In this document: positions 7,736 to 42,307 of the stretch, in pieces
Layout of the letters: each line of letters begins with the position of its first letter
Position numbering within the stretch: the stretch's first letter is position 1
Assembly (NCBI GenBank): GCA_015295835.1
Contig: DVEG01000009.1
Coordinates: 47,434 to 111,433 of the forward strand
Origin: Oscillatoriaceae cyanobacterium M7585_C2015_266
Lineage (GTDB): Bacteria > Cyanobacteriota > Cyanobacteriia > Cyanobacteriales > Oscillatoriaceae
Reading direction: 5' to 3'
Length of the DNA stretch: 64,000 nt
Notes under the pieces: model-generated
Seen by the model: the letters and a program-made list of their open reading frames with translations, nothing else
Database searches by the model: none
What the model was told of the DNA's origin: nothing
Position numbers and translations under genes: made by a program

Positions 7736-7771
7736 CATAATTTCCTGCCTCGCACGGGAAAGGAGTTTGAA

Positions 7772-20978: not shown

Positions 20979-23423
20979 TCAAATTCCCTGCTCAATTCTT
21001 TCAAAAACAACCTGCTTGTAAAAAGCTTCCAGAGCTTTGACACAGGTTTTATCGTCAAATAGATAGTCGTGGCGCTGACTCATGCGTTCAGAAATATCAC
21101 GTCGCCACTCTGGGTCTAAAGCCAATTTTACAGCAATCTCGATATATTCTGCTTCATTGTTAGCGAGCGTATCCGTCACCCCCAGCATTTTTAAGAAGCT
21201 GTAAGCGTGACGGGCGCGCATAAATTCTCCTGGACAAGTAACCACGGGCAAATTACAAGCGATCGCTTCTAAAGTAGTATTCCCTCCTGACCAAGTAAAT
21301 GTATCCAGAAACACATCAGAAAGCAGATTCAACATCAGATAATCCGAACGTTTTGGAATCGTCATATGAATACAATACTCTTCGCTATTTAATCCCACAG
21401 CCGCAAATGCACGCGCTAGACGATTTTTGAGTATACTTCCCCGCAAAAACAAAAATCTAGCATTAGGAACACGCCGAGCAATCTCCACTAAAATATAATC
21501 ATATTGAGGCAGATATTTAAAAGGCGCTTGACAGCAAAAATAAATAACCGCTTCTTCTGGTAAATTAAAATCCGCGCGAGTTTTCGTCAAAGCCGGAATA
21601 TCATTTGGTTTGGGATAAGCTACCCCAATATTCGGTAACAAAACCAGCGTTTCTGTATAATGTTCTTGTGCATTTTCCGGCTCCATTAACTGGCTGGATA
21701 AAAAGTAATCAATTGTAGGAATTCCGGAAGTAACGGGGTGTCCCCAAGCAACGCATTGCACTGGTGCAAGACGCAAAGCAGCCCTGCTCATTGTAGGAGG
21801 ATCCATTCCTATTTCTGGATATACGAGAATGTGAAGGTGATCGGCGATAATCTGTTGACAAACTGCTTCAAAATTACCATAAATGTGGTAAAATTTGTAA
21901 CTGCAATTATGAAAAATTTGCGTAACTATATCGGGAGAATTACCCGTATAATAACAGTAAATTTCAAAATTGTCGCGCTCAGCATAGCGCAGCCAACCTG
22001 TCAGCCACAACGTGCCGCTGTAAGCGTGCAGATAATTGGAAACATAGCCAATGCGGATTTTATTCTGCACAGGTGGCATGGATAATGGTTTAACCCACTG
22101 CGGATACTTAGCCGCCATGATTTTATGCACTAGATTGCCATAAATACGCTGTGAATTGACAACATTGTGAGCTTGATAAGGTAAATAAAAGTTAGTCAGG
22201 CGACAAATACCTAAAAATGCGCTTTCTCGTTCTTCTGGGGTTTCTAGGGATGTTTCCTGGATTAAATTTTGCAGCCCACGCTCAAATCGTTCACGATAAA
22301 AACCGATTTCTTCTGGCGTATCGTAAACCATTGGAACGATTAAGTTTTTTAGGATTTTAAAAGTGTAGTTATCAGGCATCAAGTGGGATGCAGTTTCAGC
22401 GGTTGACACAGCCTGAGAATTTTTTCCAGAATATAATAGTTTGAGAATCAGCGAAAAGTGAAGTGGTGCTTCTGTTGGGTATAAGCGAATGCCTTCTTGG
22501 AGGATAGCGAGGGCTTCTTCTTCCCGACGCAGTGCCCAAAAACACTCACTGAGGTTGTTATAGACACTTGTATCAACCGTTTGAAGTTGTAGATAAGTTT
22601 GATAATGAGCGAGCGCTTCTTCATATTTACCTTGCTGGTACAATATTTCAGCTATTTGCAATTGCGATTTGGCAAGATTTAGCGGCTCTTCAAATTGTAA
22701 GTTCGAGATAGCTTTAATAACCGCTTGCTGACGTTTATCTATAAAATCAGACGGTGAATAATTATAGCTTCTGCTTGTATCCCAACTGAGAACCTGAATT
22801 CCGCTGTCAAAATTCAATAATTCTAATTCTATTTTACATTCTGTGTTGGCAGCGGCAAAATCCCATATAGCTTGCTTTACTGTTGCTAGGTTGCCATTGG
22901 CTGTAATTATCAACGCTTTATCTGCTAAAAAACTTCTGACTAAAAGTAAGCCTAAAAGCTGCGATCGATAGTCAGAAAAACCATTGTAAAAATAAACACC
23001 TATTTGATTCTCTGTTTCTACTTCCCGCAACTCAAGCAAAAAATCTTCAAAATTTTGCTGGCATATAAATACCTGTTCTTCTAGCTTAAAGATTTGCAAA
23101 TTTTCTAGAATTTTTTCTAAATCAATGCAGTTGTTATCATTTGAATTATCATAAAAAGTGTCTACTGCATAAGCCATACATTCTGGGCATTCCAGAAGAG
23201 CGCCAATTAAAGCCGAGCTGTCAGGTATACCAATTTGACAGTAAATCTCATCGGGTTCCAGACATTTTACAGCTAAATTTAGCAACTGCATGAGGTTGGT
23301 TGATGCGATTCCGGGCACTTTGTCAAGTGCTTGCTGAAACTTTTCAGATTTTGGGCGTATAGATTCAAATCCCCAATTGTCATAGAGAGTGGGGAGGCGC
23401 TCAATAAATTGTTGATAATCCAT
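20979..23423 (-). CDS. TPR/GT41 (SPINDLY/OGT-like) glycosyltransferase with degenerate N-terminal methyltransferase-like domain
   Basis: 814 residues. Region 1-225 is homologous to the N-terminus of the 1010-residue protein at 29113 (shared opening LPTLYDNWG and the following layout). Its class I SAM motif is degraded: YCQIGIPDSSALIGALL replaces the expected E-x-G-x-x-x-G. TPR units lie at about 255-345 (ILYQQGKYEEALAHYQTYLQ). Region 430-805 is the GT41 catalytic C-terminus (RIGYVSNYLHAYSGTLWLTG, APVQCVAWGHPVTSGIPTID, WSGGNTTLEAIACNLPVVTC). GT41 enzymes transfer GlcNAc or fucose to Ser/Thr of proteins; here proteins may be pilins or other cytoplasmic substrates. No signal peptide. Confidence 0.85.
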   Translation of the reverse strand: MDYQQFIERLPTLYDNWGFESIRPKSEKFQQALDKVPGIASTNLMQLLNLAVKCLEPDEIYCQIGIPDSSALIGALLECPECMAYAVDTFYDNSNDNNCIDLEKILENLQIFKLEEQVFICQQNFEDFLLELREVETENQIGVYFYNGFSDYRSQLLGLLLVRSFLADKALIITANGNLATVKQAIWDFAAANTECKIELELLNFDSGIQVLSWDTSRSYNYSPSDFIDKRQQAVIKAISNLQFEEPLNLAKSQLQIAEILYQQGKYEEALAHYQTYLQLQTVDTSVYNNLSECFWALRREEEALAILQEGIRLYPTEAPLHFSLILKLLYSGKNSQAVSTAETASHLMPDNYTFKILKNLIVPMVYDTPEEIGFYRERFERGLQNLIQETSLETPEERESAFLGICRLTNFYLPYQAHNVVNSQRIYGNLVHKIMAAKYPQWVKPLSMPPVQNKIRIGYVSNYLHAYSGTLWLTGWLRYAERDNFEIYCYYTGNSPDIVTQIFHNCSYKFYHIYGNFEAVCQQIIADHLHILVYPEIGMDPPTMSRAALRLAPVQCVAWGHPVTSGIPTIDYFLSSQLMEPENAQEHYTETLVLLPNIGVAYPKPNDIPALTKTRADFNLPEEAVIYFCCQAPFKYLPQYDYILVEIARRVPNARFLFLRGSILKNRLARAFAAVGLNSEEYCIHMTIPKRSDYLMLNLLSDVFLDTFTWSGGNTTLEAIACNLPVVTCPGEFMRARHAYSFLKMLGVTDTLANNEAEYIEIAVKLALDPEWRRDISERMSQRHDYLFDDKTCVKALEAFYKQVVFERIEQGI

Positions 23424-23852
23424 TATTTTACCTCTATATATCGATGAATCAGAGTTACTATTGGCTACTTTGTAAGTATTCGAGAAGACAGGAGAATCCG
23501 TGACATATTCTATTTATAAAGATGCCCCTGCTTGGAGTATCTTAAATAAAAAGAATCAAAAACAAACCCTCTTGTGAGGCGCTGCCGAGAAAGCTAGGGA
23601 ATAGTAAATGGAGCAAGTCAGCTGGTTTGCCGAGGGAGGGCTACTACCCACAGTATCCCCCAAAACAAGGATAGTGTCTATTTTCCAGGGTTGATGTTTC
23701 TACGCCTGGAGCAGGGTTGGCCACGAGTGCAGTAAGTTGAGTATAATTAGTTTGCTTGGGGCGATTGCTTTTGAAGAGGAATTGGGAATCATAAGTGGTA
23801 TAGGGGTCGAGCAGGCAGTAACTCGTCAAGTAATTGTAATAGGAGATTGGCA
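23424..23852. other. Intergenic, promoter region of the glycosylation island
   Basis: 429 bases between the divergent GT41 gene and the small TPR gene. A minus-strand open frame (23644-23973) overlaps the real gene start and looks like chance. No RNA or repeat was recognised. Confidence 0.45.
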
Positions 23853-24251
23853 ATGAATGTAACAGAGAAAGAGTATATAATGGCTCGTAAGAGGCGAAGC
23901 GATCGCTTGAAGCATATTTTAGCGATAGTGTCAATTGTATCGTTTGGTGGCTCAGCGATATTCGGCATGGCACAACTGTTTAGCAGTGCTGTACAAAAAC
24001 CGAGTAAACCGACTACAGCCGAATCATCAGTTGAGTCGCAATTGGCAGCCCAAGCACGAGGATATGAATTAGTGTTGCAGCGAGAGCCAGAAAATCAGAC
24101 AGCGCTGGAAGGGCTGGTAAATGTGCGGCTTATGATGAACGATGCCAAGGGTGCTATACAACCTTTAGAAAAGCTGGTAAAATTGTATCCTGAGCGTCAG
24201 GATTACAAAGCGCTATTGGAGCAGGTGAAACAGGGAAAGGTAGAGAAATAG
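23853..24251 (+). CDS. Small membrane-anchored TPR protein
   Basis: 132 residues from the ATG at 23853, seven bases after GGAG; an upstream in-frame TTG (23847) and a downstream ATG at 23880 are alternatives. One N-terminal transmembrane helix (ILAIVSIVSFGGSAIFGMAQ) is preceded by basic residues (ARKRRSDRLK). A Ser/Thr/Pro linker and two TPR-like helix pairs follow (YELVLQREPENQTALEGLV, AIQPLEKLVKLYPERQDYKA). Cyanobacteria encode many such proteins near membrane processes. Its exact role is unknown; the neighbouring glycosyltransferases suggest assembly or scaffolding. Confidence 0.75.
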   Translation: MNVTEKEYIMARKRRSDRLKHILAIVSIVSFGGSAIFGMAQLFSSAVQKPSKPTTAESSVESQLAAQARGYELVLQREPENQTALEGLVNVRLMMNDAKGAIQPLEKLVKLYPERQDYKALLEQVKQGKVEK

Positions 24252-24294
24252 GAGGCGATATCCACAGAAAAAATAAACGCGTGTGGGGTGACTG

Positions 24295-27200
24295 ATGGAT
24301 AAAGAGATAGCAAATTCGGGGCTCAATCGTATTATTCCAGCAGAAATAAAAAACGATCTATTTTATGCGGCAATTCAAAGAATAGCACGACAAGAGAACA
24401 TCAAAACGGTTTTAGAAATTGGCTCTTCTTCTGGTGAGGGAAGTACCGAAGCATTTGTGACAGGCTTACGGCAAAATCCGCGTCAGCCAAAGCTATTTTG
24501 CATAGAAATTTCAAAAACTCGCTTTGCAGAATTGCAAAAGCGATATGCCAAAGATAATTTTGTAAAATGCTACAACGTTTCTTCTGTATCCCTGGATAAA
24601 TTTCCAGATGAAAAAGAGGTGATGGAATTTTATGAGTCTATTCAGAGCAATCTCAACTATTATTCCCGAGAAGAAGTGCTAAGTTGGCTGCGGCAAGATA
24701 TTGAGTATGTAAAGAAATCTGGCGTGCAAGCAGATGGAATAGCTCTGATAAAAGCTGAAAATAATATAGAATGCTTTGATGTAGTTTTAATTGATGGTTC
24801 AGAATTTACAGGCAGTGCGGATCTAGAAGAGGTTTATGGAGCAAAATTTATATTATTAGATGACATAAAGACATTTAAAAATTACAAAAATTATCAGCGA
24901 TTACTGTCTGATAGTAATTATACACTGCTAGAACAAAATATTTACGTTAGGCACGGATACGCTATTTTTAAGAAAAAAGAAAGTAGCAGCGCCGGAGAAT
25001 TGGTTGAGCAGGATTTACCCGTACATTTTTTTACAATTGTTCTGAATGGAGAACCCTTTATCCGCTACCACATAGAGGTTTTCAAGCAACTCCCCTTTAA
25101 ATGGCACTGGCATATAGTAGAGGGGGTAGCAGATTTAAAACACGATACTGCATGGAGCTTGCAACTAGGCGGGCGGATTGTCGATGAAATTCATCGAAAC
25201 GGGCGTAGCAAAGACGGCACCTCGGAATATATAGATGAACTGACGCAGCTCTATCCAGAAAATGTTACGGTTTATCGCAAACCGGAAGGAGTTTTCTGGG
25301 ATGGGAAGCTAGAAATGGTGAATGCCCCACTTGCGAATATTCAGGAAGAATGTTTGCTATGGCAAGTAGATGTAGATGAACTGTGGACAGTTGAGCAACT
25401 GTGTAAAGCCCGCGAGATGTTCATCAACAATCCAGAAAAAACAGCCGCTTTCTACTGGTGCTGGTATTTCGTGGGAGAGAATCTAGTTATCAGTACCCGT
25501 AATTGTTACGCAGAAAACCCAGCTCAAGACTGGTTACGAACTTGGCGATTTAAACCAGGATTGGTTTGGGCAGCTCACGAACCGCCTAAGTTAGTTGAGC
25601 CTTTGCCAGATGGGGAGTGGAGGGATGTGGCAGAGCTCAATCCTTTTTTACATGAAGAAACCGAAAGCCAGGGGTTAGTTTTCCAGCATTTTGCATATGT
25701 AATGCCAGAACAATTGCGGTTTAAAGAGCAATATTACGGGTATGCAAATGCTCTTTCGCGATGGCAATCTTTGCAGGAGCAAACAAAATTTCCAGTTTTA
25801 TTGCGTCAGTATTTTCCCTGGGTAAAAGATGCAACAATGGTGGATAAGGCGGAGTCGTGCGGTGTAGTTCCAATTGCCCAGAAAGATACGAACAAAAATG
25901 TATGGAAATTTGTACAATCTGAGGGAGGGGTCAGGCAATCTGTAGCGCCTAAAAAACCCTTGCCAAAGATTCTAATTGACAGCATATTTTTCCAGTTCTA
26001 TCAAACTGGCATTGCCCGAGTCTGGCGATCGCTTTTGGAAGAATGGGCAGAGGATGGTTTTGCAAGGCATATTGTCGTCCTTGATCGCGCCGGGAGGGCT
26101 CCAGCAATACCGGGGATTAAATATCGCCTCATTCCCCCATATGATTACAATAATACCGATAGCGATCGCGCCATGCTGCAGCAGGTTTGCGATGAAGAAG
26201 AGGCAGACTTATTTATCTCAACTTATTACACAACTCCTCTCTCAACACCTTCGGTGTTCATGGCGTATGACATGATTCCCGAAGTAGGGGGAGCAAACCT
26301 CAGAGAGCCAATGTGGCGGGAAAAACACTATGGTATCCGACACGCCTCTGCTTATATCGCCATTTCAGAAAATACAGCTCGCGATCTAATGCGATTTTTC
26401 CCAGAGATTTCCCCTCAATCTATTACGGTAGCCCACTGTGGAGTAAAAGATATTTTCTCGCCAGCTAGCGCTGATGAAATAAAGCGCTTTAAAACTAAGT
26501 ACGGTATCTCGAAACCCTACTTCATAGCTGTTGGGATTGGCAATGGTTACAAAAACTCTGGCTTGTTTTTCAAGGCAATCTCTCAACTTTGCAGCCGAGA
26601 GGGTTTCGAGCTTGTTTGTACTGGTAGCGGCGGTTTGTTATCGCCAGAATTTAGAGAGTATACAGTGGGTGTGGTTGTGCACATGCTGCAACTGAGCGAC
26701 GAAGAACTCAGAACTGCCTACTCCGGTGCTGTAGCTTTAGTATATCCCTCGAAGTACGAAGGGTTTGGCTTGCCTGTTTTAGAAGCAATGGCATGTGGTT
26801 GCCCGGTGATTACTTGTGCCAATGCCTCCATTCCAGAGGTGGGAGGAGAAGCAGTTTTGTATGTCGGCGATGAAGATGTAATGGCAATGACTAATGCCCT
26901 TTGCGATGTCCAAAAGCCTGCTGTTCGCAACGCATTGATTGCTGCTGGGCTGGAACGAGCAAAATTATTTTCCTGGTCAACAATGGCTAAAAAAGTGCGA
27001 GCAGCACTGATTGAGGCTACTCTTTTACCTTTAAAGTTGAAGGATATTAATTTAATTGTTTTTCCAGACTGGCAACAACCAGAAGAGTCTCTCGGTAAAG
27101 AATTGGAACGAGTGATCGCGGCGGTAATTACACACCCAGATAAAAATCGCCTCACTTTGTTGATAGAAGCTGGCAATATATCCGAGGAAGATGCTAATCT

Positions 27201-27426
27201 ATTTTTATCGAGCGTGACGATGAACCTGCTTATGCAGGAAGATTTAGACGTGACGGAGGGGCCGGAAATTTCACTGGTAAGCAAGATGGGTGAAATACAG
27301 TGGGAAGCCCTGCTGCCTCGCCTCAAGGCTCGCATTATTTTAGAAAATGAGAATAAAGAGGCGCTCGCAGCTGCAAAAGCGGAAAATCTACCTGTTTGCA
27401 ACCTAGAGGCTCTAGCAAGTATCTGA
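24295..27426 (+). CDS. Multidomain methyltransferase-like / GT2-like / GT4 glycosyltransferase fusion
   Basis: 1043 residues in four visible parts. First, about 1-225 is a class I SAM-methyltransferase-like domain with motif I VLEIGSSSGEGSTEAF (39-54) and DVVLIDGSEFTG. Second, about 240-530 is a GT2-like region (FFTIVLNGEPFIRYHIEVF, LLWQVDVDELWTVEQL with a D-x-D). Third, about 560-900 is a GT-B, GT4-type domain (VFMAYDMIPE, AYIAISENTARDLM, then KYEGFGLPVLEAMACGCPVI). Fourth, 915-1043 is a domain shared with the next gene, opening INLIVFPDWQQPEESLG. It likely builds or decorates a glycan or glycosylated protein. Sugar donors are unknown. ATG at 24295 follows GTGGGGTGACTG; the gene lies 43 bases after the small TPR gene. 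Confidence 0.8.
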   Translation: MDKEIANSGLNRIIPAEIKNDLFYAAIQRIARQENIKTVLEIGSSSGEGSTEAFVTGLRQNPRQPKLFCIEISKTRFAELQKRYAKDNFVKCYNVSSVSLDKFPDEKEVMEFYESIQSNLNYYSREEVLSWLRQDIEYVKKSGVQADGIALIKAENNIECFDVVLIDGSEFTGSADLEEVYGAKFILLDDIKTFKNYKNYQRLLSDSNYTLLEQNIYVRHGYAIFKKKESSSAGELVEQDLPVHFFTIVLNGEPFIRYHIEVFKQLPFKWHWHIVEGVADLKHDTAWSLQLGGRIVDEIHRNGRSKDGTSEYIDELTQLYPENVTVYRKPEGVFWDGKLEMVNAPLANIQEECLLWQVDVDELWTVEQLCKAREMFINNPEKTAAFYWCWYFVGENLVISTRNCYAENPAQDWLRTWRFKPGLVWAAHEPPKLVEPLPDGEWRDVAELNPFLHEETESQGLVFQHFAYVMPEQLRFKEQYYGYANALSRWQSLQEQTKFPVLLRQYFPWVKDATMVDKAESCGVVPIAQKDTNKNVWKFVQSEGGVRQSVAPKKPLPKILIDSIFFQFYQTGIARVWRSLLEEWAEDGFARHIVVLDRAGRAPAIPGIKYRLIPPYDYNNTDSDRAMLQQVCDEEEADLFISTYYTTPLSTPSVFMAYDMIPEVGGANLREPMWREKHYGIRHASAYIAISENTARDLMRFFPEISPQSITVAHCGVKDIFSPASADEIKRFKTKYGISKPYFIAVGIGNGYKNSGLFFKAISQLCSREGFELVCTGSGGLLSPEFREYTVGVVVHMLQLSDEELRTAYSGAVALVYPSKYEGFGLPVLEAMACGCPVITCANASIPEVGGEAVLYVGDEDVMAMTNALCDVQKPAVRNALIAAGLERAKLFSWSTMAKKVRAALIEATLLPLKLKDINLIVFPDWQQPEESLGKELERVIAAVITHPDKNRLTLLIEAGNISEEDANLFLSSVTMNLLMQEDLDVTEGPEISLVSKMGEIQWEALLPRLKARIILENENKEALAAAKAENLPVCNLEALASI

Positions 27427-27467
27427 TAGATTACCAAAAGGCAGACAAACATAACAGAAAAAATACT

Positions 27468-29033
27468 GTGAACGGCGAAAAAGCGGCAGGCTCATTTACA
27501 AAGATAAGTAATTTTTCTGGGGCAATATTTTTCTATTGCACCGAAGGAGTCTATCATCATTTAAGTGTATGTATTGCGGAAGGCTTACAGGAATTAGGAA
27601 TACCCTTTTATTCCAATATCAATTACTGGAAAATTTCGCCAGAACGAGAAGACTATCTATTCCGCCACGATGTCGAAGTCAGCCCAGATAATTGTTCTGT
27701 GGTAGTGGTGAGCCATCAGTGGTTTAATCAAAACTTGCATTTGCCCGAAAATCTGTTTCACCCAGCTCGAAAATACATTACGGTCTATCTCGATGATATG
27801 GATGGACCTGTCGTATGGAATCCAGAATTTAGAAACTTTGACTTGATCTTTAGAACACACTACAATAAGGGAGAATATCCTTCTAATTGCTTGCCTTGGC
27901 AGTTTGGAATTTCTAACAGAATCCTGAAAGAAACCAGTCAAGGACTGAGCTTTCAGAAAAGAAAAAGGCAACTGCTAGTCAATTTCCGCAACGACCAGGA
28001 CATTTTAGAAATTTCCAATTGTTGGCTGAAAGTTAACCAAGGGTTTTTGAGAGTTGACCGGGGGGCAATAATCGTTGCCCGTCCTCTCAGGCATATTGTT
28101 CGCGAACAATTTCTCCCTCTGATTGAGAAAATTCTGCCAGTAGAAGATACTGTTGATTATTTTGATCTGCCTCCCTCAGACAGTTACCACTACTTGCATT
28201 GGACTCAAACAGGTCAGCGCCACTACCCCAATTACTATAAACGCCTGAAAGAATCTGCTGCCTGTGCCTGCTTCGGAGGGTATACATTCCCCCTGGACAC
28301 AACAGGAAAATTCCTTGTGGAATGGTGGGATAGCTGGCGATTTTGGGAGTCGTTGGCGGCAGGCTGCGTGACGTTTCACGTAGATTTTGACAAGTATGGC
28401 ATACAACTACCAGTAATGCCAGAAAACTGGCAGCACTACATCGGTCTGGACTTAGACAATTTTGAGGAAGCTGTCGAGCGCATTGCCAGCGAACCTGAAA
28501 TTTTAGAGAGGATTTCTATATCGGGACGCGAGTGGGCGCTCGCCAATTACGGCCCAGTTCCTACAGCTTTGCGTTTTATAGAAACAATTAGTGGCCGCTT
28601 TTCACCGAACCCCCTGCTACCGCTTTCGCTGCCGCTCAGAGAGATTAATTTAATTATTTTCCCCGATTGGTCTGAACCAGAAGAAACCCTGAGCTGGCAA
28701 TTAGAGCGAGTCATCCGAGCGCTCCTCACCCACCCAGATAAAAGTCGCATAACGTTGCTGGTAGAAACTAGCGCTATTTCTGAAGAAAATGTAAATTTGC
28801 TTTTATCCGGTATTACAATGAATCTGCTGATGCAGGAAGATTTAGACGTGAATCAAGGGCCAGAAATTGCTTTGGTAAACCGGCTAGATGAAAAACAGTG
28901 GGCAGAACTCTTACCTCGTATTCAAGCTAGAATCATCTTGGAGAGAGAAAATCACCAGGCGATCGCAGAAACGGCAATAAAAATTATTTCAGCTGTTTCT
29001 ATCGAAAGTATAAGCAATAAACGCTTCGCTTGA
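27468..29033 (+). CDS. Glycosyltransferase-like protein with shared C-terminal domain
   Basis: 521 residues from GTG at 27468; an in-frame TTG at 27396 would overlap the preceding gene by 31 bases. The first 385 residues resemble GT-B enzymes without an obvious family name (GAIFFYCTEGVYHHLSVCIA at the start; WWDSWRFWESLAAGCVTFHV, a late GT1/GT4-type donor-binding pattern with Glu). An exostosin-like relationship is possible. The last 130 residues (INLIIFPDWSEPEETLSW through MNLLMQEDLDVNQGPEIA) repeat the C-terminal domain of the gene before it. No signal peptide or transmembrane helix. It probably acts in the same glycan pathway. Confidence 0.65.
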   Translation: MNGEKAAGSFTKISNFSGAIFFYCTEGVYHHLSVCIAEGLQELGIPFYSNINYWKISPEREDYLFRHDVEVSPDNCSVVVVSHQWFNQNLHLPENLFHPARKYITVYLDDMDGPVVWNPEFRNFDLIFRTHYNKGEYPSNCLPWQFGISNRILKETSQGLSFQKRKRQLLVNFRNDQDILEISNCWLKVNQGFLRVDRGAIIVARPLRHIVREQFLPLIEKILPVEDTVDYFDLPPSDSYHYLHWTQTGQRHYPNYYKRLKESAACACFGGYTFPLDTTGKFLVEWWDSWRFWESLAAGCVTFHVDFDKYGIQLPVMPENWQHYIGLDLDNFEEAVERIASEPEILERISISGREWALANYGPVPTALRFIETISGRFSPNPLLPLSLPLREINLIIFPDWSEPEETLSWQLERVIRALLTHPDKSRITLLVETSAISEENVNLLLSGITMNLLMQEDLDVNQGPEIALVNRLDEKQWAELLPRIQARIILERENHQAIAETAIKIISAVSIESISNKRFA

Positions 29034-29112
29034 CACAAAACGAGCGAAAACCAATCGAAAAATTGGATTATAAACAACATAATTCTCAATTAGAAAACTA
29101 CAGACTACGGCC

Positions 29113-32100
29113 ATGGACTGCGAAAAATTTCTCGAGCAACTGCCCAAACTTTACGACAATTGGGGAAAAGCATCAGTCAAACCAAAGTCAGATTTGTTTC
29201 AGCAAGTACTTGAGCGTACAGGTGGGCTGACTACTGTCAATGTCCTACAAGCGCTAAATTTTGCTGTCTCGTGCATGGAAAACAGCGAAATATACTGCGA
29301 AGTCGGTTGCTTCCAAGGCAGCAACTTAATCGGGGCATTACTGAATAATCCAGATAAAATAGCTTGTGCAGTCGATAACTTTTCTGAATTCGACCCTTTA
29401 GAAGACAGCTTTCAGGCTTTGACGCACAACCTTTCAAGTTTTAATTTAGAAGAAAGAGTATTTTTAAGCAATTGCGACATTCACGAATTTTTATTTGAAC
29501 TGCGCGAACTAGAAACTGAAGACCGAATTGGCGTTTATTTTTGTAACGGTACGCGCGATTACCGCTCTCATTTGATGGCCTTACTAATGGCCAAATCCTT
29601 ACTTGCTGAAAGAGCCATAATTTTTGTCAGCTACAGCAATTGGGAAGTCGTTCGACAAGCAAACTGGGACTTTTTGGCTACCCATCCTCAATGTCAGATG
29701 GTGCTAGACTTTTCTAAAGAAGATATTTCGGAATCTTGGAACGGTTTGCAGATTTTTATTTGGGATGAAAATAAAACCCGTAATTATGCTTGGTCAACCT
29801 TCAAAGAGTGTAAGCATCAATCGGTAGTAGATCAGATTGAAAAATTAACGTCAGAAACAAAGAAAAAAAATATTGAAAGTTTTTATCAGGAAGTATTGAA
29901 ATTACAAGTAGTTAATTCTTATAAGAGAGCAGAAAAAAAATACAGGCAGCTTTTATACTTAGATAGTAAAAATGCCAATAACTGGCTGAATTTTGGCATT
30001 TTCTACTACCAAAGAAACCAATATCAAAAAGCGCTAGCGGTTTTTTTAAAATCTTTAGAAGTAGAGAAGGCAAAAGCGGTGTTTTATTATAATTTAGGAG
30101 TGGTGCTGGAAAAAGTCGGCGAGCTGGAACAAGCCATCCGAGCTTATCAAAATGCAATCGCCCTCGAACCAAAGGGAATTAATGCTTATAACAACCTGGG
30201 AAATATCCTGTACAATGCAGGAGATATAGAAGGAGCTGAGGCAATTTATCGTGCCTGTATTGCAGCTAACCCAGAACATTTTGGAGCATATCTTAATTTG
30301 GGAAACATTCTGATGGAGCGGCATAGAGTTGATGAGGCAATAGAAAATTATGAAAAAGCTCTGAGTTTAAAACCGCGCAATCCCGATATTCTTCATAATC
30401 TAGGTGTGGCATTTGATGCCAAAAATGACCGCGCCAAAGCAGCTCTATACTATGGTTATGATTATTATCGTAGAGGAGAGTATGAAAAAGCAATTCAATA
30501 CTATCAGGAGTTTCTCCAAACTCAAACAGGAGATAGAGATTTCTACATTGTATTAGCAGAATGCTATCAATCTGTAAATAAATATGAAGACGCGATAAAT
30601 ACCTACAGAGAAGGAATAAAACTTTATCCCGGCGATGCCAACCTTTACTCGTGTTGGGCGATTGCCTTGCAAGAATACGGACAAGTCGAGGAAGCGATCG
30701 CGCTTCTCACCGAGGCTTCTCAACTTGCACCGAATAATTTAACTTTGAAAATACAAAAGCAATTCATGTTGCCCATTATTTACGATAATGAAGCAGAAAT
30801 TGAGTTTTATAGAAACGAGTATGTACAAGGTTTAGAAAACTTAATTCAGCAGACATCATTGCAAACTCCTGAAGAAAGGAAGAGCGCTTTAGAAGGTGTA
30901 GGGAGCAGGACAAGTTTTTACCTACAGTATCAAGGTAAAAATGATTTAGACTTGCAAGTACGCTACGGGCAGTTCGTGCATCAAGTAATGGCTGCCAACT
31001 ATCCCCAATGGGTCAAACCTTTGTCCATGCCGCCCCTCAGCCCCAATGGAAAAATTAGAATTGGTTATGTTTCCAGATGCATGAAATGGCATACAGTTGG
31101 CAAATTAATGTTAGGCTGGCTGCGAAACTGCAACCACCAAGACTTTGAAGTATTCTGCTACTATACTTATCGAAAAGAAGACTTTTATACTAAACAATTC
31201 TGCCTTTACAGCGATATCTTTCACCACATTCCAGACGACCTAGAGGCTGTGTGTCAGCAGATTCTTGCCGACCAATTGCACGTTTTAGTTTTTATAGAAA
31301 TTGGCATGGATCCGGCGATGACACAAATAGCCGCTTTGCGACTTGCGCCCGTACAGTGTACAACTTGGGGACACCCGATTACATCGGGCTTGCCAACCAT
31401 AGATTACTTTATATCTAGCGAACTGATGGAGCCAGAAAATGGGAAAGAACACTATTCAGAACAATTGATATGCTTGCCGAATATTGGGATTGCTTATGCA
31501 AAGCCAAGCCTGCCTGAAGTTGTAAAAACCCGGTCGGAATTTGGCTTGCGCGATGACGCGGTATTGTACTTGTCTTGTCAATCTTTATTTAAGTACCTGC
31601 CGCAGTATGACTATATTTTTGCTGCGATTGCTCAAAGAGTGCCTCAATCTCAATTTGTTTTTCTTTCTCACCAGAGAAGCGAGCACATCAATGAAAAGTT
31701 TAAGCTGCGATTGCAAAGGGCATTTGCTGAATTTGGCTTGAATAGCAAAGACTACTGTGTTATGCTTAGCCGCCTAAATACACCCGATTATTTGAGCCTG
31801 AACTTAGTGTCTGATGTTTTTCTAGATACGTTTAGTTGGTCGGGCGGAAATACTACCTTAGAGGCGATCGCTTGCAATTTGCCAGTAGTCACTTGCCCAG
31901 GTGAATTTATGCGCGGTCGTCATTCCTACGGGATTTTGAAAATGCTAGGCGTAACGGACACCATTGCTAAAAATGAAGCTGAATATATTGAAATTGCTGT
32001 CAGATTAGGTTTGGACAGCGAGTGGAGAAAAAGCATTGTCGAACAGATTGCCTCTCGCCATTCCTACCTTTACGATGACAAAATTTGTGTAGAAGCCCTT

Positions 32101-32145
32101 GAGGAATTTTATCGCCGTGTAGTACAAGAAGCTCGAAAAGTGTAA
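29113..32145 (+). CDS. Methyltransferase-like / TPR / GT41 (SPINDLY/OGT-like) glycosyltransferase
   Basis: 1010 residues. An N-terminal class I methyltransferase-like domain (1-220) has a well-kept motif, YCEVGCFQGSNLIGALL at about 61-77. A TPR solenoid runs from about 265 to 560 with classical units such as AVFYYNLGVVLEKVGELEQA and AYNNLGNILYNAGDIEGAEA. The GT41 catalytic region (about 640-1005) has RIGYVSRCMKWHTVGKLMLG, APVQCTTWGHPITSGLPTID and WSGGNTTLEAIACNLPVVTC. This is the longer paralogue of the gene at 20979 and is more intact. In the GT41 family the His and Lys contacting UDP-sugar lie in these C-terminal motifs. Protein O-glycosylation is inferred from family; N-terminal methyltransferase activity is untested. 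Confidence 0.85.
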   Translation: MDCEKFLEQLPKLYDNWGKASVKPKSDLFQQVLERTGGLTTVNVLQALNFAVSCMENSEIYCEVGCFQGSNLIGALLNNPDKIACAVDNFSEFDPLEDSFQALTHNLSSFNLEERVFLSNCDIHEFLFELRELETEDRIGVYFCNGTRDYRSHLMALLMAKSLLAERAIIFVSYSNWEVVRQANWDFLATHPQCQMVLDFSKEDISESWNGLQIFIWDENKTRNYAWSTFKECKHQSVVDQIEKLTSETKKKNIESFYQEVLKLQVVNSYKRAEKKYRQLLYLDSKNANNWLNFGIFYYQRNQYQKALAVFLKSLEVEKAKAVFYYNLGVVLEKVGELEQAIRAYQNAIALEPKGINAYNNLGNILYNAGDIEGAEAIYRACIAANPEHFGAYLNLGNILMERHRVDEAIENYEKALSLKPRNPDILHNLGVAFDAKNDRAKAALYYGYDYYRRGEYEKAIQYYQEFLQTQTGDRDFYIVLAECYQSVNKYEDAINTYREGIKLYPGDANLYSCWAIALQEYGQVEEAIALLTEASQLAPNNLTLKIQKQFMLPIIYDNEAEIEFYRNEYVQGLENLIQQTSLQTPEERKSALEGVGSRTSFYLQYQGKNDLDLQVRYGQFVHQVMAANYPQWVKPLSMPPLSPNGKIRIGYVSRCMKWHTVGKLMLGWLRNCNHQDFEVFCYYTYRKEDFYTKQFCLYSDIFHHIPDDLEAVCQQILADQLHVLVFIEIGMDPAMTQIAALRLAPVQCTTWGHPITSGLPTIDYFISSELMEPENGKEHYSEQLICLPNIGIAYAKPSLPEVVKTRSEFGLRDDAVLYLSCQSLFKYLPQYDYIFAAIAQRVPQSQFVFLSHQRSEHINEKFKLRLQRAFAEFGLNSKDYCVMLSRLNTPDYLSLNLVSDVFLDTFSWSGGNTTLEAIACNLPVVTCPGEFMRGRHSYGILKMLGVTDTIAKNEAEYIEIAVRLGLDSEWRKSIVEQIASRHSYLYDDKICVEALEEFYRRVVQEARKV

Positions 32146-32174
32146 TAATGAAAATTTATATAAATTTAAATTAT

Positions 32175-32340
32175 TTAATGCGAACGGACAAGTGCATGGA
32201 ATAAGCGTTCTATTGCCGTGGCTTGACGCTCGTATAATTTTAGAAAACGAAGACGGCGAGCGCAACTGTGGGAGGTGAAAATATTCCCGTCTGCGAATTA
32301 GAGAGCATCTATTTGCAACGAGTTGTTCAATTCAACTAAA
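32175..32340 (+). pseudogene. Frameshifted remnant of the shared C-terminal domain
   Basis: Translation gives LLPWLDARIILENEDGE, matching LLPRLKARIILENENKE at the end of the 24295 protein, ended by TGA. One frame over, ENIPVCELESIYLQ matches ENLPVCNLEALAS. The intact domain would be about 130 residues; only its last 45 remain, without the glycosyltransferase part. It lies directly after the GT41 gene, so a related gene was probably lost here by deletion. Confidence 0.75.
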
Positions 32341-32387
32341 AAACTTGGAAGCTGCAATAAACAGACGTTTGTAGGCGTTTCTGTCGA

Positions 32388-34616
32388 TTATTGATTTTCA
32401 ATAAATCTTTGCCACATCTGTTCGTAAGCCTTCTCCATTTCGCGGGCAAACTGCCTCCCATTCCAAAGGGGAGAGGTGTGCCTAGATTGCCGCAGCCGCC
32501 AAGATATTTCTTTGCGCAGTTCTGGATCTTTCCCCAGACGCACTCCCCATTCTACATATTCTTCTGCGCTCCAAGCAATCCCTTCTTTAACTCCAACATT
32601 CATCATCATGCTATAACTGTTGCGAGCTGAAAATTGTTCGCCCACGCGCGTTACTAAAGGAACCCCCATCCACAGGGTTTCTAGAGTAGTTGTCGCACCA
32701 TTGTAGGGGTAGGTATCGAGTACCACATCTGCAATACCCAAATTTGCTCGGTGAACCGATTCTAAGGCTACTTCAGATAGAAATCGCAGACGCTCGCACT
32801 CTACTCCTTCTTCTTCCGCCAACTGCATGAAAAAACTTTTAATTGCTTTCTCGTCTGCCGTTCCCTTAATTAAAAAATAACTATTCGGAACTTCCTTAAT
32901 AATCTTCATTTGCAGTCGCACTGTATCGGGGTGACGCTTGTAGCCTTTTTGAGAGCTAAGGTATACCACCGCATCGCTGGGAATATCCAGCTGATCCCGC
33001 CGCAGCGTCGGTACGTCTATTTCAAACCCATCGACTGCAATAAAAGTGTGCGGCAAGCGCCAGATTTTTTCCGCGTAGTAATCCCCCGCAGATTCGGGCA
33101 AAACATAGGGATCAGCGATAAAGTAGTCAATCGCTGGAATTCCCGAAGCATCCCATCCCAACCACGTCACTTGAACCGGAGCCGGTTTGAGCATCATCAC
33201 TTCACAGCTCGTGTCGAGAGTGATACTGTCGAGATCGATTAAAATTTCTATTTCATCTCCATAAATCTGTTCCGCCACGTCTAAACCTTCTGCGGAGTGG
33301 TAAGCTTTGTTCATTTTGCTGACATACCATTCTTCCAGGGGATCGTTACTCCATTTTTGGGTTAAAAAATAACCGTTGATTTGAAATCGTTCCCGATCAT
33401 GATACTCCAACAGCCATCTCGCCAGCCATCCCACCGAATGCCTTCTCAAACAATGGGATAAGTATCCTATCTTTATCGGCTCTGACTTGCGTTTTGCCTG
33501 CTGCCATTGACAGTGGCGCGCTCGGTATCGCTCGACTTTTTCCTTTGCATAAATTTCAGCATTTATTTGGCATAACTCAGCTAATTTATTTTGAAGCTGT
33601 CTGTTCCTCTGGGCGCGATCGCTAAAATAGGGCAGGAAAAAGCTAGTATTCACCAAGCGTAGTACTTCAATCTCTGATAGATTTTTCGGTTGTGCTTCTA
33701 TCAGCTCCGACAGCAGCGATTCCTGTCTTTGCCCTATTTTTTGAGCTTCTTGCCAATATCCACCCGCCCCCATCAACCCTCGCAGGAGCAGATAGTTTGC
33801 ATAAACTTTATCTGGAATTTTTTCTAAAAGAGAATAGCACAATTTAGCCGTTTCAATTCCTTTATCAAAATCGCAAGCATTTTGATAAAAAATTGATAAT
33901 TGACGCAGAACTTCTAGATTGTTCGCATCGATCTCAAGGTAGATTTCCGCAAGACGTGCTGCCAATTCTGGTCGCCTATGCACGTAGGCGATGGTTACAG
34001 CAGCTGGAAGCACTACTTTTAGAAATTCTATCGGTTCGCGGATGTAGGCGAGACTTACCTTCACCAATTCTAGGGAAAAAGGGTGGAGCGGAGCGCTGTC
34101 TAAGACTCGCCGCAGCACTTGCATTAATAAATCAAAGTCCAGGTTCGCTGGTGGCTGAGAGCGCAGGATTTCGATGATTCCCCATTCATTCAGCTCATCT
34201 CCTGATAGAGTTCCCAGCTCGATGCTAAGCTGAATTAGATATAAAAGATTGTTGATATTTCCGGGAGCAATTTCCCGCAGATGTTGCCGAATCAGCCAAG
34301 AATTTCTATAGTTTTTAAGTGCTTCTTGCCTTTCGGCTTCCGCTTGCAACACCTGTATAAGTTCTTCCGTCCACTGATCGACTTCTTCCGGCTCACCTTC
34401 TACCATTCCCAGCAGCCAAGTGGTGTGGGCTTCTTCTTCTTTTCCCTGCAACAGCAACATCAAACCCAGATGCCAGTAGTGAGATTTGACATCAGGTTCA
34501 GCGTTAATAGCCTGCTCGTAGAGGTTCGCTGCCAAGGAATAACTCTCTTCTTCGAGATATTTGCGCGCCTGCTGCTGCCATTCAATTCGTGCAGTTAAGG
34601 AGCTTTCAGAGATCAT
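32388..34616 (-). CDS. GT41 (SPINDLY/OGT-like) glycosyltransferase next to pilin gene
   Basis: 742 residues from ATG at 34616; a TTG at 34631 adds five residues. The N-terminal 300 residues are TPR-like helical repeats (ARKYLEEESYSLAANLYEQA and later YLEIDANNLEVLRQLSIF). Region 360-740 is the GT41 domain: IKIGYLSHCLRRHSVGWLAR, PAPVQVTWLGWDASGIPAID, VYLSSQKGYKRHPDTVRL, DTYPYNGATTTLETLWMGVP. The TWLGW form of the motif separates it from the two paralogues in this window and is nearer to classical SPINDLY proteins. It follows the pilin-like gene by 100 bases on the same strand, with two hairpins between them, so a role in pilin glycosylation is suggested but unproven. Confidence 0.85.
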   Translation of the reverse strand: MISESSLTARIEWQQQARKYLEEESYSLAANLYEQAINAEPDVKSHYWHLGLMLLLQGKEEEAHTTWLLGMVEGEPEEVDQWTEELIQVLQAEAERQEALKNYRNSWLIRQHLREIAPGNINNLLYLIQLSIELGTLSGDELNEWGIIEILRSQPPANLDFDLLMQVLRRVLDSAPLHPFSLELVKVSLAYIREPIEFLKVVLPAAVTIAYVHRRPELAARLAEIYLEIDANNLEVLRQLSIFYQNACDFDKGIETAKLCYSLLEKIPDKVYANYLLLRGLMGAGGYWQEAQKIGQRQESLLSELIEAQPKNLSEIEVLRLVNTSFFLPYFSDRAQRNRQLQNKLAELCQINAEIYAKEKVERYRARHCQWQQAKRKSEPIKIGYLSHCLRRHSVGWLARWLLEYHDRERFQINGYFLTQKWSNDPLEEWYVSKMNKAYHSAEGLDVAEQIYGDEIEILIDLDSITLDTSCEVMMLKPAPVQVTWLGWDASGIPAIDYFIADPYVLPESAGDYYAEKIWRLPHTFIAVDGFEIDVPTLRRDQLDIPSDAVVYLSSQKGYKRHPDTVRLQMKIIKEVPNSYFLIKGTADEKAIKSFFMQLAEEEGVECERLRFLSEVALESVHRANLGIADVVLDTYPYNGATTTLETLWMGVPLVTRVGEQFSARNSYSMMMNVGVKEGIAWSAEEYVEWGVRLGKDPELRKEISWRLRQSRHTSPLWNGRQFAREMEKAYEQMWQRFIENQ

Positions 34617-34637
34617 ACAAACTATTCCCAACTTGTT

Positions 34638-34692
34638 AGGAGTAGCGCCCTTACGCTACTCCTTTCAAGAATAAATTCTGCTGGCATACGCC
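34638..34692 (-). other. Two hairpins between pilin and GT41 gene
   Basis: On the minus strand, ATTCTGGCG-TATG-CCAGCAGAAT (34674-34693) is followed by GGAGTAGCG-TAAGGG-CGCTACTCC (34639-34662). Neither is followed by a good T-run; the first is trailed by TTTATTCTT. They may end part of the pilin transcripts, stabilise the pilin mRNA or regulate read-through to the glycosyltransferase gene. Confidence 0.6.
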
Positions 34693-34716
34693 AGAATCTA
34701 AACCACGCAACTCTCC

Positions 34717-35241
34717 TTACTTGCCCAGGATAGTATAAGCAGACGGGCAGTTATCGATGTTCGCTACTAATGCCGTTGTTGCGCCGGGTTCGTTAGATTC
34801 GCACAGGATGGCTTGCGTGAGAACTTCAGTACCACTACCACTACCGGAAGTAAGCGTACCTACTCCGCCTACATAAGTTTTCAGGGTTTTGCTGCCGACC
34901 CCTTCTGCTATGTTGCTTATGACTGTGTTTGTACTGCCAGCTATCGTATACTTGTAGTTTGCTGTTTGGGTTTTAATCCCAACACCCAGTTCTGCGATGC
35001 TGGTTGTAAATTGGTTCTTTTCCAAAAAGTATGCTTGCTGAGCCCGGTTCATCGCGCCTACATTCTGTCTGGCTTCAGCTTGTTTGGCTTTGTTGGTTTG
35101 GCTGAGGAGAGATGGGAGAGCAACTGCAGCCAGAATACCGATAATGATAACTACAACCAGTAGTTCAATTAGAGTGAAACCTTTTTCTTGTTTCTTTTGA
35201 TTGAGGTGTTGCAGAAACTTGGCTTTAAATTCGGTCTTCAT
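34717..35241 (-). CDS. Type IV pilin-like protein (PilA-type)
   Basis: 174 residues. The prepilin leader of 21 residues (basic, ending QEKG) is followed by the cleavage-site sequence FTLIELLVVVIIIGILAAVA, with the mature Phe+1 and Glu+5 expected for PilD processing and methylation. The globular part carries a typical ALPSLLSQTNKAKQAEARQN start, and a C-terminal Cys pair (ILCESN, DNCPSAY) could form a D-loop. A Gly/Ser/Thr-rich stretch (GGVGTLTSGSGSGTEVL) offers possible O-glycosylation sites. Cyanobacterial PilA functions in motility, competence and aggregation. Neighbouring GT41 genes make glycosylation plausible. Start ATG follows AAGGAGAAAT. Confidence 0.92.
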   Translation of the reverse strand: MKTEFKAKFLQHLNQKKQEKGFTLIELLVVVIIIGILAAVALPSLLSQTNKAKQAEARQNVGAMNRAQQAYFLEKNQFTTSIAELGVGIKTQTANYKYTIAGSTNTVISNIAEGVGSKTLKTYVGGVGTLTSGSGSGTEVLTQAILCESNEPGATTALVANIDNCPSAYTILGK

Positions 35242-35444
35242 AAATTATTTCTCCTTGAGGTGTGGGATGCTTGCTTTCTATTTCCTGGATATAACTTACC
35301 CACTCCCCTTTGATTTCATATCATCTTCGGCAAAAATTTTTTCTGGTTCTGGAAAAGTATGTTAAAAAATCGTATATCTTAACAATATTACCCATTTGCG
35401 ATCGCTTTCATATCACCTTCACTAAAAATTTACCTCATCCTCTT

Positions 35445-36782
35445 TTAAATCTCCGACACTGCAGGCTCCAACAGAACGTACATAAAGGGTTCCAGTTGGC
35501 TCAAAAGTTCCTTAACTTCATCAAAAGCCCTTTTTTCGTCCACTGGCTCTAGAGTTGCCAGATCTAATGGTCTAATTTTGAGCGCTCGCTCGACTAACGC
35601 AGAAAACGGCTGTGCTCCCTCCCACAGTGGCAGCAGGTAAGCTGCCCTACTGCTATCTATAGTAATAGGAACTGTTGTCGGCAACGAAATATAAGCACTA
35701 ATTTCAAAAGGTTTGTGCTTATGGATACATTCTATCAACTTTTCTTTAACTTGTGGTGTTCTCAACTGCGGGTGCAGGTGAACTCTTGCCCTTTGCCAGT
35801 CAGATAATTCCCACTCTCCGACTGGCACGTAGGTTTCGCCCTGGTTGGGATGGCCACACCAAAAATCTAGCAGACGGTTTATGGGATGTATTAGCTCAAA
35901 TAGGTGCAGCCGCTCTTCAATAGAAATTTCTGGCAAGCTAATTTCCAGAAAGGCGGGCAAGTCTTCAGGATTTGCAAACAGCTCCATCAATTCCCATTGC
36001 CGCCAATTCACCATACTGATAAACTCCAAATCCGCAGCCTTGAGGGCGGCGAACATTTCAGGAATTGTATAGCCTTTGTCTCCCTGAAATAAATAGTTCA
36101 TCAACATCCACTCTTCATCATTTGCTTTGTCTGGCACAAACGTTCTGGCTTTTAACAACACTCCATCTTTTAAGGCAACCATTACTTGACGTGCCAGCTC
36201 TATCTCCAATTCTCTGGGATTTTCATCCATCAAGCCCATCATCTTGAATATTTCCTGAGCCCTGTAAAAGTAGGTTCTCTGTAGGGAGCTGTGCAGATTA
36301 GCCCGAATTATGCCATCGGGTTTGAGAACCGATTTCATTGCCTGTAGACCTTTTGTTGGCTCAGGCAGTAGATAGAGAACTTCATCGCAATTTATATAGT
36401 CAAACTCTAAACCCAGACTAGGAATTTCTTCTATAGAAATAGGATAATAAAATTCGTGATTTTCAAATCCGTGATATTCTAAACGGTGCTTTGCTAATTT
36501 AGCCGATTCTTCTGAGATATCTATTCCTATAATTTTAGCACCTGGATTGGCAATAGCTAAAGCCAATGATTTGTATCCGCTGCCACAGCCGGCATCTAAG
36601 ATTATTTTTCCTTCGGTATTTATAACTTTTTGATTTCTTAAATAGTAGGGCGTTAATAGGTTGTGAATAAATAGAAAATTATAATCTTCCTTTGGAGATT
36701 TTTCAAGGGGAATACGGGGATAAGGGGCGCTGTCAAATTGTTCGCGAATTTTTTTTATCAACTCTGGGTCTTGCTTGTCCAT
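35445..36782 (-). CDS. Class I SAM-dependent methyltransferase with C-terminal regulatory-like domain
   Basis: 445 residues. The SAM domain (about 40-170) has motif I IILDAGCGSGYKSLALA and motif II region AKIIGIDISEESAKLAK, then DYINCDEVLYLLPEP and LKPDGIIRANLHS. The C-terminal 250 residues include FISMVNWRQWELMELFANP and later PLWEGAQPFSALVERALKIR, reminiscent of the PKMT regulatory and JmjC-less tails of other cyanobacterial methyltransferases. The substrate is unknown; protein lysine or glycan methylation are options given the neighbours. It is upstream of the pilin gene on the same strand with a 200-base gap, and after exbB-exbD, whose genes end before it on the same strand. Confidence 0.8.
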   Translation of the reverse strand: MDKQDPELIKKIREQFDSAPYPRIPLEKSPKEDYNFLFIHNLLTPYYLRNQKVINTEGKIILDAGCGSGYKSLALAIANPGAKIIGIDISEESAKLAKHRLEYHGFENHEFYYPISIEEIPSLGLEFDYINCDEVLYLLPEPTKGLQAMKSVLKPDGIIRANLHSSLQRTYFYRAQEIFKMMGLMDENPRELEIELARQVMVALKDGVLLKARTFVPDKANDEEWMLMNYLFQGDKGYTIPEMFAALKAADLEFISMVNWRQWELMELFANPEDLPAFLEISLPEISIEERLHLFELIHPINRLLDFWCGHPNQGETYVPVGEWELSDWQRARVHLHPQLRTPQVKEKLIECIHKHKPFEISAYISLPTTVPITIDSSRAAYLLPLWEGAQPFSALVERALKIRPLDLATLEPVDEKRAFDEVKELLSQLEPFMYVLLEPAVSEI

Positions 36783-36854: not shown

Positions 36855-37478
36855 TTATTCTGTTTTCTTGGGGGCAGGATTAGTAGTGCCTGAAGGGGTG
36901 GGGGCAATAAGATTGGGCTGAGTTGGTGCTGGAGTTGTGGTGGGCAGGGGCAATTGATTGGGAGTGAGGGGGGTGTTGGTTGCGGGAGTGTTTGATGGGG
37001 AAGGTGGGGATAGGTTTAAGTTGGGAAAGGCGGGATTGAATGGAATTTGGGGGCTGGGGAGTAAGGGTTGAGTTTCGGAGCCGGGTAGGGTAGCTAAGGC
37101 AACGCGCTCGCGCCCTGCTACTCGCAGCATATCCAGCACCTGTACTACGTCGTTGTAGCGTGTGTCTTTGGAAGCATATAAAACTGTTATTCCCCCCGGA
37201 TTGTTTTTATGATACTGCTTAACTTCCTCAAATAAGCGTAAGCGACTGACTGGCTGTTTCTCAATATATGTTTGCCCATTTAAAATGCTGACAATCAACA
37301 TCTCTCGTGTTTGCCTTTGCCCAGTGCGAGCTTTAGGCAAATCGACTGTAATCGCTTGCTGGCGAGTAAGCTGTAGGGCAGCGATTAAAAAAAACGTCAG
37401 AATACAAAATATAACGTCAATCAGGGGAACTAGCTCGATTCTTACCTCTTCGCCGGGAATATCTTGTTTTATTTTCAT
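36855..37478 (-). CDS. exbD: ExbD/TolR-family biopolymer transport protein
   Basis: 207 residues. The N-terminal segment VRIELVPLIDVIFCILTFFL is the single ExbD membrane helix with the proton-relay Asp in PLIDVIF. The periplasmic domain (about 45-130) includes VSILNGQTYIEKQPVS and DMLRVAGRERVALATLP. The C-terminal 70 residues are a Pro/Thr/Asn-rich tail, longer than usual. It forms the proton-driven motor with ExbB, encoded 138 bases upstream on the same strand. No TonB or TolA gene is seen in the window, so the transducer is elsewhere. Confidence 0.9.
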   Translation of the reverse strand: MKIKQDIPGEEVRIELVPLIDVIFCILTFFLIAALQLTRQQAITVDLPKARTGQRQTREMLIVSILNGQTYIEKQPVSRLRLFEEVKQYHKNNPGGITVLYASKDTRYNDVVQVLDMLRVAGRERVALATLPGSETQPLLPSPQIPFNPAFPNLNLSPPSPSNTPATNTPLTPNQLPLPTTTPAPTQPNLIAPTPSGTTNPAPKKTE

Positions 37479-42155: not shown

Positions 42156-42307
42156 TTTTTGTTTCCTTAATTAACCTAAAAAAATGCAGATAAAGGCTAC
42201 TGATAACAAGCAAGCTAACAGTACTTTTCCAATTTTAACAGATGGAAGCCAGCTAATAATAAAAATATTAATAAATATTAAGCATCATGTGGTTGGCATA
42301 AGCCCAA

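Follow-up and report, generated by a model that had tools for sequence, protein, structure and literature searches.

Cyanobacteria use type IV pili for gliding, aggregation and DNA uptake. Here we describe a probable pilin-modification locus in a 64,000-nucleotide stretch of the genome of Oscillatoriaceae cyanobacterium M7585_C2015_266 (contig DVEG01000009.1, positions 47,434 to 111,433; the whole stretch is referred to as the window), in which a conserved methyltransferase-pilin-OGT block and a variable cassette of genes for glycan enzymes stand face to face, and the enzymes of both are predicted to assemble an O-linked glycan on the pilin. The nearest counterpart is the cyanobacterial pilA-ogt system, in which a GT41-type gene adjoins the major pilin gene and has a role in PilA glycosylation (PMC12288463); the same review cites OgtA of Nostoc punctiforme (Khayatan 2017) and a pilin-modifying glycosyltransferase (Suban 2022). 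The pilin-block half of the locus, an Ogt gene beside pilA, is already known in kind, and the portion of the review available to us mentions neither a facing variable cassette of glycan enzymes nor a shared add-on domain. An earlier interpretation of this DNA, made from the sequence alone and called here the original prediction, knew of no described system with this exact set of genes. Ogt beside pilA is in print (PMC12288463); of the cassette and the module we found no account in a literature covered mostly as titles and abstract starts, with subscription papers largely outside it.

Three further systems invite comparison. First, the Synechocystis pilA1 operon, with C-terminal lysine trimethylation of PilA1, also has a methyltransferase beside the pilin, but here an OGT gene follows the pilin, and our methyltransferase (P0007) is likened to Sll1693 by gene position. 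One account of this operon (sll1693-sll1696) calls Sll1693 potentially involved in PilA1/PilA2 methylation (PMC12313861), and an older paper gives the function of the methyltransferase as unknown (PMC4144903). Secondly, the serine-rich-repeat adhesin clusters (accessory Sec, GtfA/GtfB, Asp1-3) combine conserved priming proteins with a variable number of further transferases that glycosylate the acceptor stepwise before export, and in them GtfA and GtfB use a domain common to both, DUF1975, to interact with one another and with the acceptor (PMC6973325). Our locus likewise has a conserved predicted priming enzyme, variable transferases and genes co-located with that of the candidate acceptor, and Asp1 is the top structural match of its shared domain, although the fold matches are weak. 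It differs in that its candidate acceptor belongs to the type IV pilins, in that neither SecA2/SecY2 nor a serine-rich-repeat acceptor occurs among the Pfam-scanned locus genes and ten flanking genes (the search went no further into the genome), and in that the shared domain, unlike DUF1975, sits on several enzyme families and matches no Pfam model. Thirdly, en bloc pilin glycosylation of the PilO/PglL type employs flippase and O-oligosaccharyltransferase genes; the same scans, within the same limits, found no flippase, lipid-carrier or oligosaccharyltransferase gene.

Organization of the locus

The features of the locus are listed in Table 1. The ExbB, ExbD, methyltransferase, pilin and OGT genes follow one another on the minus strand, and the small tetratricopeptide repeat (TPR) gene (sTPR), the fusion gene, the glycosyltransferase (GT)-like gene and the TPR-GT41 gene face them on the plus strand, so that the pilin block and the variable cassette converge, with the gap between their tails running from 32145 to 32388. 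The remaining GT41 gene, that of P0001, points away from the cassette and is directly adjoined by an aminotransferase gene. The original prediction had treated the genes from 20979 to 36782 as one accessory island. Its gene calls were sound, in that all three GT41 genes (Pfam PF13844) score above the cut-off of 25 bits and the pilin, the S-adenosylmethionine (SAM) methyltransferase, the small TPR protein and the GT-like gene are all present. The methyltransferase-pilin-OGT part, however, is conserved and not accessory, and the locus consists of two units, a conserved pilin block and a variable cassette.

Table 1. Features of the probable pilin-modification locus and its flank (window coordinates).
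Feature	Position	Strand	Evidence
Shorter GT41 paralogue of P0004 (P0001)	20979..23423	-	GT41 116.9 bits; 54.5% identity to P0004 over GT41 part
Small TPR protein with hydrophobic N-terminal stretch (sTPR), far anchor of cassette	23853..24251	+	TPR_19 23.0 bits, just below cut-off 25
Methyltransferase-like/GT2-like/GT4 fusion with C-terminal CTD (P0002)	24295..27426	+	GT4 68.3 bits; CTD at residues 913-1024
CTD copy 1, in P0002	27031..27366	+	
GT-like enzyme without Pfam family, C-terminal CTD (P0003)	27468..29033	+	CTD at residues 412-523 of the reading frame from 27396
CTD copy 2, in P0003, as folded (117 residues)	28629..28979	+	AlphaFold2 pLDDT 91.6, pTM 0.86
Methyltransferase-24-like domain, TPR, GT41 (P0004)	29113..32145	+	GT41 122.3 bits, TPRs; Methyltransf_24 at residues 63-172, E 0.0012, below cut-off
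Broken remnant of third CTD, two reading frames, between TPR-GT41 gene and OGT	32210..32309	+	tblastn of CTD against whole window, E 9e-5
Pilin-linked OGT, GT41 (P0005)	32388..34631	-	PF13844 175.1 bits; reading frame from TTG 34631, first ATG 34616
Type IV pilin, predicted major pilin (PilA-like), last residue Lys	34717..35241	-	PF16734 104.8 bits, N_methyl 37.8 bits
Class I SAM methyltransferase "MT7" (P0007), predicted pilin lysine methyltransferase	35445..36782	-	PF13847 86.1 bits
ExbD-like gene upstream of methyltransferase	36855..37478	-	PF02472 93.7 bits; among 50 loci in L013-L018 only (L018 cut within ExbD)
ExbB/TolQ-like gene	37616..38407	-	TIGR02796 E 9.2e-14, below its cut-off; among 50 loci in L013-L017 only

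Beyond the sTPR gene the same outer genes are seen in two other loci, L015 and L016 (the aminotransferase in both, NFACT in L016), which favours a fixed chromosomal place over a mobile insert. Base composition does not mark out a horizontal island either, with G+C of 0.40-0.44 at 22-32 kb, 0.44-0.50 at 14-22 kb, 0.43-0.45 at 32-40 kb and 0.37-0.40 beyond, and no sharp edge. The genome has five GT41 genes, three at this locus and two on another contig in a different setting (L011); a paralogous copy of the island was rejected, as those two genes sit among different neighbours and only P0001, P0004 and P0005 matched there. At that second site (L011:11410-16870; G000:C23) the two GT41 genes are convergent, one with a GT2-like start by eye, and the neighbours appear by eye to be glycan and secretion genes.

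The pilin block

The conservation of the pilin block was followed in two samples, a set of 50 pilin loci and a set of 39 relatives. The first came from a scan of named genome contigs with six pilin search patterns, including the leader peptide; all have cyanobacterial titles, and the set is no census. A P0005-type OGT is present in 46 of the 50 loci and the methyltransferase P0007 in 39, and several of those without one or the other are cut by contig ends. The relatives were chosen by taxonomy, with kinship between genomes left uncorrected in the co-occurrence counts. Of these genomes, 29 have the OGT and 26 the methyltransferase; a pilin lies no more than 3 kb from the OGT in 27 and from the methyltransferase in 17. 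For neighbourhoods in these genomes we took 41 of the 58 OGT matches (those of at least 300 bits, the own genome included), 46 pilin matches (the best per genome and those beside an OGT), 30 of the 33 methyltransferase matches and all 40 matches of the shared domain, two of them the window's; matches are stretches and not genes, and one protein may give several (e.g. in G020). Pilin synteny had been set beforehand as a test of the link to type IV pili, and on these counts the link stands.

In the window the pilin and OGT open reading frames (ORFs) are separated by 85 bases. The closest solved relatives of P0005 are OGT and SPINDLY chains in the PDB (E 5.4e-47 and 8.7e-46). At the positions of the active-site residues His498 and Lys842 of human OGT, P0005 appears in printed alignments to keep both residues. 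P0007 has its best PDB sequence match in 8hkr, named "protein lysine methyltransferase" by its depositors (E 3.2e-15), over residues 61-294 and so well beyond the SAM-binding core; it also matches 5dnk, "protein lysine methyltransferase 1", in the core (E 3.4e-8), and other methyltransferases score between and below these two. It thus resembles protein-lysine methyltransferases and is a predicted pilin lysine methyltransferase.

Pilins ending in lysine are found in 16 of 24 genomes with the methyltransferase versus 3 of 12 without it (p 0.033, kinship uncorrected), and in 23 of 38 loci versus 1 of 6 (p 0.077, likewise uncorrected). These counts use one pilin per genome or locus, with values read by eye; six of the 50 loci were dropped since the upstream region or the pilin is cut by a contig end, as were genomes G009, G017 and G036, where the pilin end was not read. 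Clear exceptions, such as the Okeania/Trichodesmium loci in which the methyltransferase is present and the pilin mostly ends in leucine, rule out the terminal lysine as an invariable sign of the methyltransferase; the weak association is kept as a lead. The prepilin leader (MKTEFKAK...) was considered as an OGT recognition tag and rejected, because similar leaders also occur without OGT (e.g. G016 and G024) and because its conservation in the 50 loci is partly selected by the search peptide. For a peptide that is cleaved off, the leader (approximately MK.E..AKFLQHL) appears well conserved, whether OGT is present or missing. Serine and threonine richness of the pilin (p 0.08) is not used as support.

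A shared domain linked to the pilin OGT

The fusion enzyme P0002 and the GT-like enzyme P0003 share a C-terminal domain (CTD) of about 112 residues, the two copies being 57% identical over 127 residues while the catalytic parts of the two enzymes are dissimilar at BLAST level. These are the only two CTD copies in the genome. The CTD was found in 24 of the 39 relatives, and 26 of its 38 matches there lie within 20 kb of a P0005-type OGT, 24 of them on the opposite strand, in 18 of the 24 genomes. A further 29 CTD-bearing genomes gave a similar picture: 38 of 48 matches, spread over 23 of the 29, lie no more than 20 kb from the OGT, 35 of them on the opposite strand. By our own estimate, chance alone would place about 1% of matches inside a 20 kb margin on either side, for a genome of about 5 Mb. 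Across 194 genomes of the phylum, our own included, 37 have the CTD, 54 the OGT and 35 both, such that, with kinship uncorrected, the OGT occurs in 35 of the 37 CTD-bearing genomes versus 19 of the 157 without CTD.

The far end of the cassette is also recognizable. An sTPR gene of at least 50% identity lies beyond the CTD genes, on the opposite strand from the OGT, in 16 of the 46 OGT loci (16 of the 50 pilin loci) within the DNA fetched. Between OGT and sTPR a CTD protein is present in all 16, yet these intervals show 14 different gene contents, a number that counts unassigned ORFs of at least 100 amino acids on both strands and becomes 12 when those on the pilin strand are ignored. The CTD therefore tracks the pilin OGT, and the cassette has fixed ends and a changing middle. 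The broken third CTD at the inner end of the cassette points to gene turnover within it. In a close relative (G007:C28:162333-163441) many in-frame stops interrupt the P0003-like gene next to the OGT, an instance of decay within the cassette.

These patterns bear on whether the window merely holds a known pilin-Ogt locus beside an unrelated polysaccharide cluster, one that serves the synthesis of exopolysaccharide or of a lipid-linked glycan and whose position was inherited without functional meaning. The cassette does lie on the opposite strand from the pilin block, GT4 and GT2 enzymes are also used in polysaccharide synthesis, and two CTD-bearing genomes (G144 and G201) have no OGT. We nonetheless consider this reading unlikely, as 41 of 53 CTD-bearing genomes (own excluded) have a CTD no more than 20 kb from the OGT, mostly on the opposite strand, as the gene set changes while the CTD and the ends stay, and as none of the ten flanking genes scanned is a polymerase, flippase or export gene.

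Properties of the CTD

Database models do not describe the CTD. Pfam gave no match for copy 1 and, for copy 2, a 10-residue match (E 0.02) below its cut-off; NCBIfam gave none for P0003 and none reaching the CTD of P0002, and the best hit of a PDB sequence-profile search had an E of 0.28. A search of about 5.8 billion proteins returned 127 relatives. By our own count, 104 of the 120 listed carry a glycosyltransferase or methyltransferase label (GT4, GT2, GT41, FkbM-type and other methyltransferases) and 16 are unlabelled. In these 120 plus the window's two, the CTD stands at the C terminus of 107 proteins and at the N terminus of 10, lies inside 4 and is found at both ends of 1. Of the 109 homologues added by a search with the GT domain of P0003, 74 combine that domain with a CTD and 35 lack one, and this, with the varied positions, identifies the CTD as a mobile, separable module. 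Within one genome, CTDs from different enzymes show higher identity to each other (61.4%, 20 pairs) than CTDs of different genomes do (56.2%), a difference reached in 1 of 2000 permutations.

The confidently modelled fold has Asp1 as its top structural match, although all fold matches are weak, and GT-B-like chains share the list with Card1, mitoribosome chains, dehydrogenases and a chain from a sample titled CgsiGP2, all of similar Z. From this model we tentatively assign the CTD as a likely non-catalytic Rossmann module. An alignment of 46 copies (A2; the window's two and 44 of the 45 CTDs from 27 loci, one truncated copy being left out) has no basic residue at an invariant or near-invariant position, as expected of a non-catalytic module. 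The same result makes it unlikely that the CTD, instead of being a docking tag, forms a catalytic or sugar-nucleotide-binding half of a glycosyltransferase or is a spacer passed on by duplication; against this also speak the other glycosyltransferase or methyltransferase domains of CTD-bearing proteins and the 35 homologues that have the same GT domain and no CTD.

Enzymes of the cassette

Within P0002, which had been predicted to be a methyltransferase-GT2-GT4 fusion, the GT4 part is secure, and the GT2 (E 0.0083) and methyltransferase (E 0.22) parts are weak, each below its cut-off when taken alone; several of its CTD-bearing homologues are labelled methyltransferase, GT2 and GT4. The start of P0003 at ATG 27468 is consistent with its homologues P0008 and P0010. 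The protein gave only a chance-level match in Pfam, its catalytic part (27468-28628) having none at E 0.1, and Pfam searches with the 15 members of an alignment of this part (A1) returned three stray families, in one member each. The catalytic part nevertheless has 534 relatives at E of at most 0.001; nearly all of the 120 listed are without a Pfam label, and several are named "glycosyltransferase" by their sources. This type of GT domain was found in just 3 of the 39 relatives. A structural model of whole P0003 was too poor for use (pLDDT 45.5).

The three GT41 genes do not form one set. P0005 is the pilin-linked enzyme, and P0001 and P0004 belong to a different family (methyltransferase-like, TPR, GT41), set apart from OGT and SPINDLY by its N-terminal methyltransferase-24-like domain. 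Members of this family lie mostly elsewhere in the relatives, where just 5 of 26 matches come to within 20 kb of the pilin OGT, and P0001 and P0004 therefore look like local recruits. P0001 has an altered SAM motif and, in a printed alignment read against the same human positions, tyrosine in place of the active-site histidine, with the lysine kept; the corresponding positions of P0004 were judged by eye, with its sequence beside those of P0001 and P0005. With its other conserved parts remaining, P0001 seems a worn paralogue of P0004, possibly a non-catalytic partner. For sTPR, 20 matches chosen from the top of the list entered the neighbourhood count, and the resulting 11 of 20 is not used as evidence.

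A model for pilin modification

The reading that we find the more convincing on this evidence, and regard as probable, is that the block and the cassette together modify the pilin. In the cytoplasm P0005 would place the first sugar on serine or threonine residues of the pilin, and the cassette enzymes (from P0002 to P0004) would extend, and perhaps methylate, that sugar stepwise before export; P0007 would methylate the pilin, possibly at its C-terminal lysine. The CTD may hold the cassette enzymes to a common partner, for which the OGT, the pilin and sTPR are candidates, and the set of CTD-tagged enzymes of a strain would then decide its pilus glycan. By analogy with the adhesin clusters, we propose that their logic applies to a pilin, with the OGT priming, the tagged enzymes extending and the tag docking. 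What the data show is the gene content, the conserved neighbourhood, the mobility of the CTD, its tie to the pilin OGT and its modelled fold; the enzyme activities, the acceptor, the sequence of events and the docking are predictions drawn from these. The original prediction had the island make a glycan and then attach it to pili or another surface protein. Its pilus link is retained; its order of events is not, because the scans of the locus and its ten flanking genes detected no flippase, lipid-carrier or oligosaccharyltransferase gene and stepwise extension on the pilin fits better.

A different role for the OGT has also been considered. Khayatan (2017) is said to have found that PilA accumulation depends on ogtA in Nostoc punctiforme. 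That GT41 enzymes mainly act on cytosolic proteins, regulating the amount of pilin rather than building a pilus glycan, draws on this and on the listing of N. punctiforme ogtA among hormogonium motility genes in PMC6495340, but is very unlikely as it leaves the linked set of other glycan enzymes unexplained.

Building on pilin glycosylation by the block and cassette, we also entertain a bolder and more doubtful idea, namely that the CTD is the docking tag of a bacterial protein-glycosylation assembly line. It would be a glycosyltransferase lobe that has lost its activity, is borne by sugar and methyl transferases not otherwise related to one another and plugs them into the pilin OGT complex, a type of component without earlier description, such that strains could rewrite their pilus sugar code by swapping tagged enzymes between two fixed ends.

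Neighbouring features

Two adjacent chemoreceptor genes, CHASE3-MCP and 4HB-MCP, are located at 40713-43915, near the pilin block, and a cobalamin riboswitch lies on the plus strand at 7601-7739 (38.3 bits). A scan of the block for promoters and terminators gave 15 promoter-like sites against 11.5 in shuffled sequence and 4 terminator-like sites against 8.2, and was not used.

Implications

The action of Ogt on pilin is in print, and what decides the rest of the glycan is not stated in the papers covered. The CTD offers a sequence handle, in that a search with it finds enzymes that probably finish the pilus glycan, including an enzyme family without a Pfam entry. A broader question, whether a shared non-catalytic module can assemble unrelated glycosyltransferases on one protein acceptor, becomes testable as well. 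For the organisms themselves, the OGT and the cassette enzymes likely build a species-specific sugar decoration on type IV pili, and such pilus sugars could be a target of phages and a basis for self-recognition.

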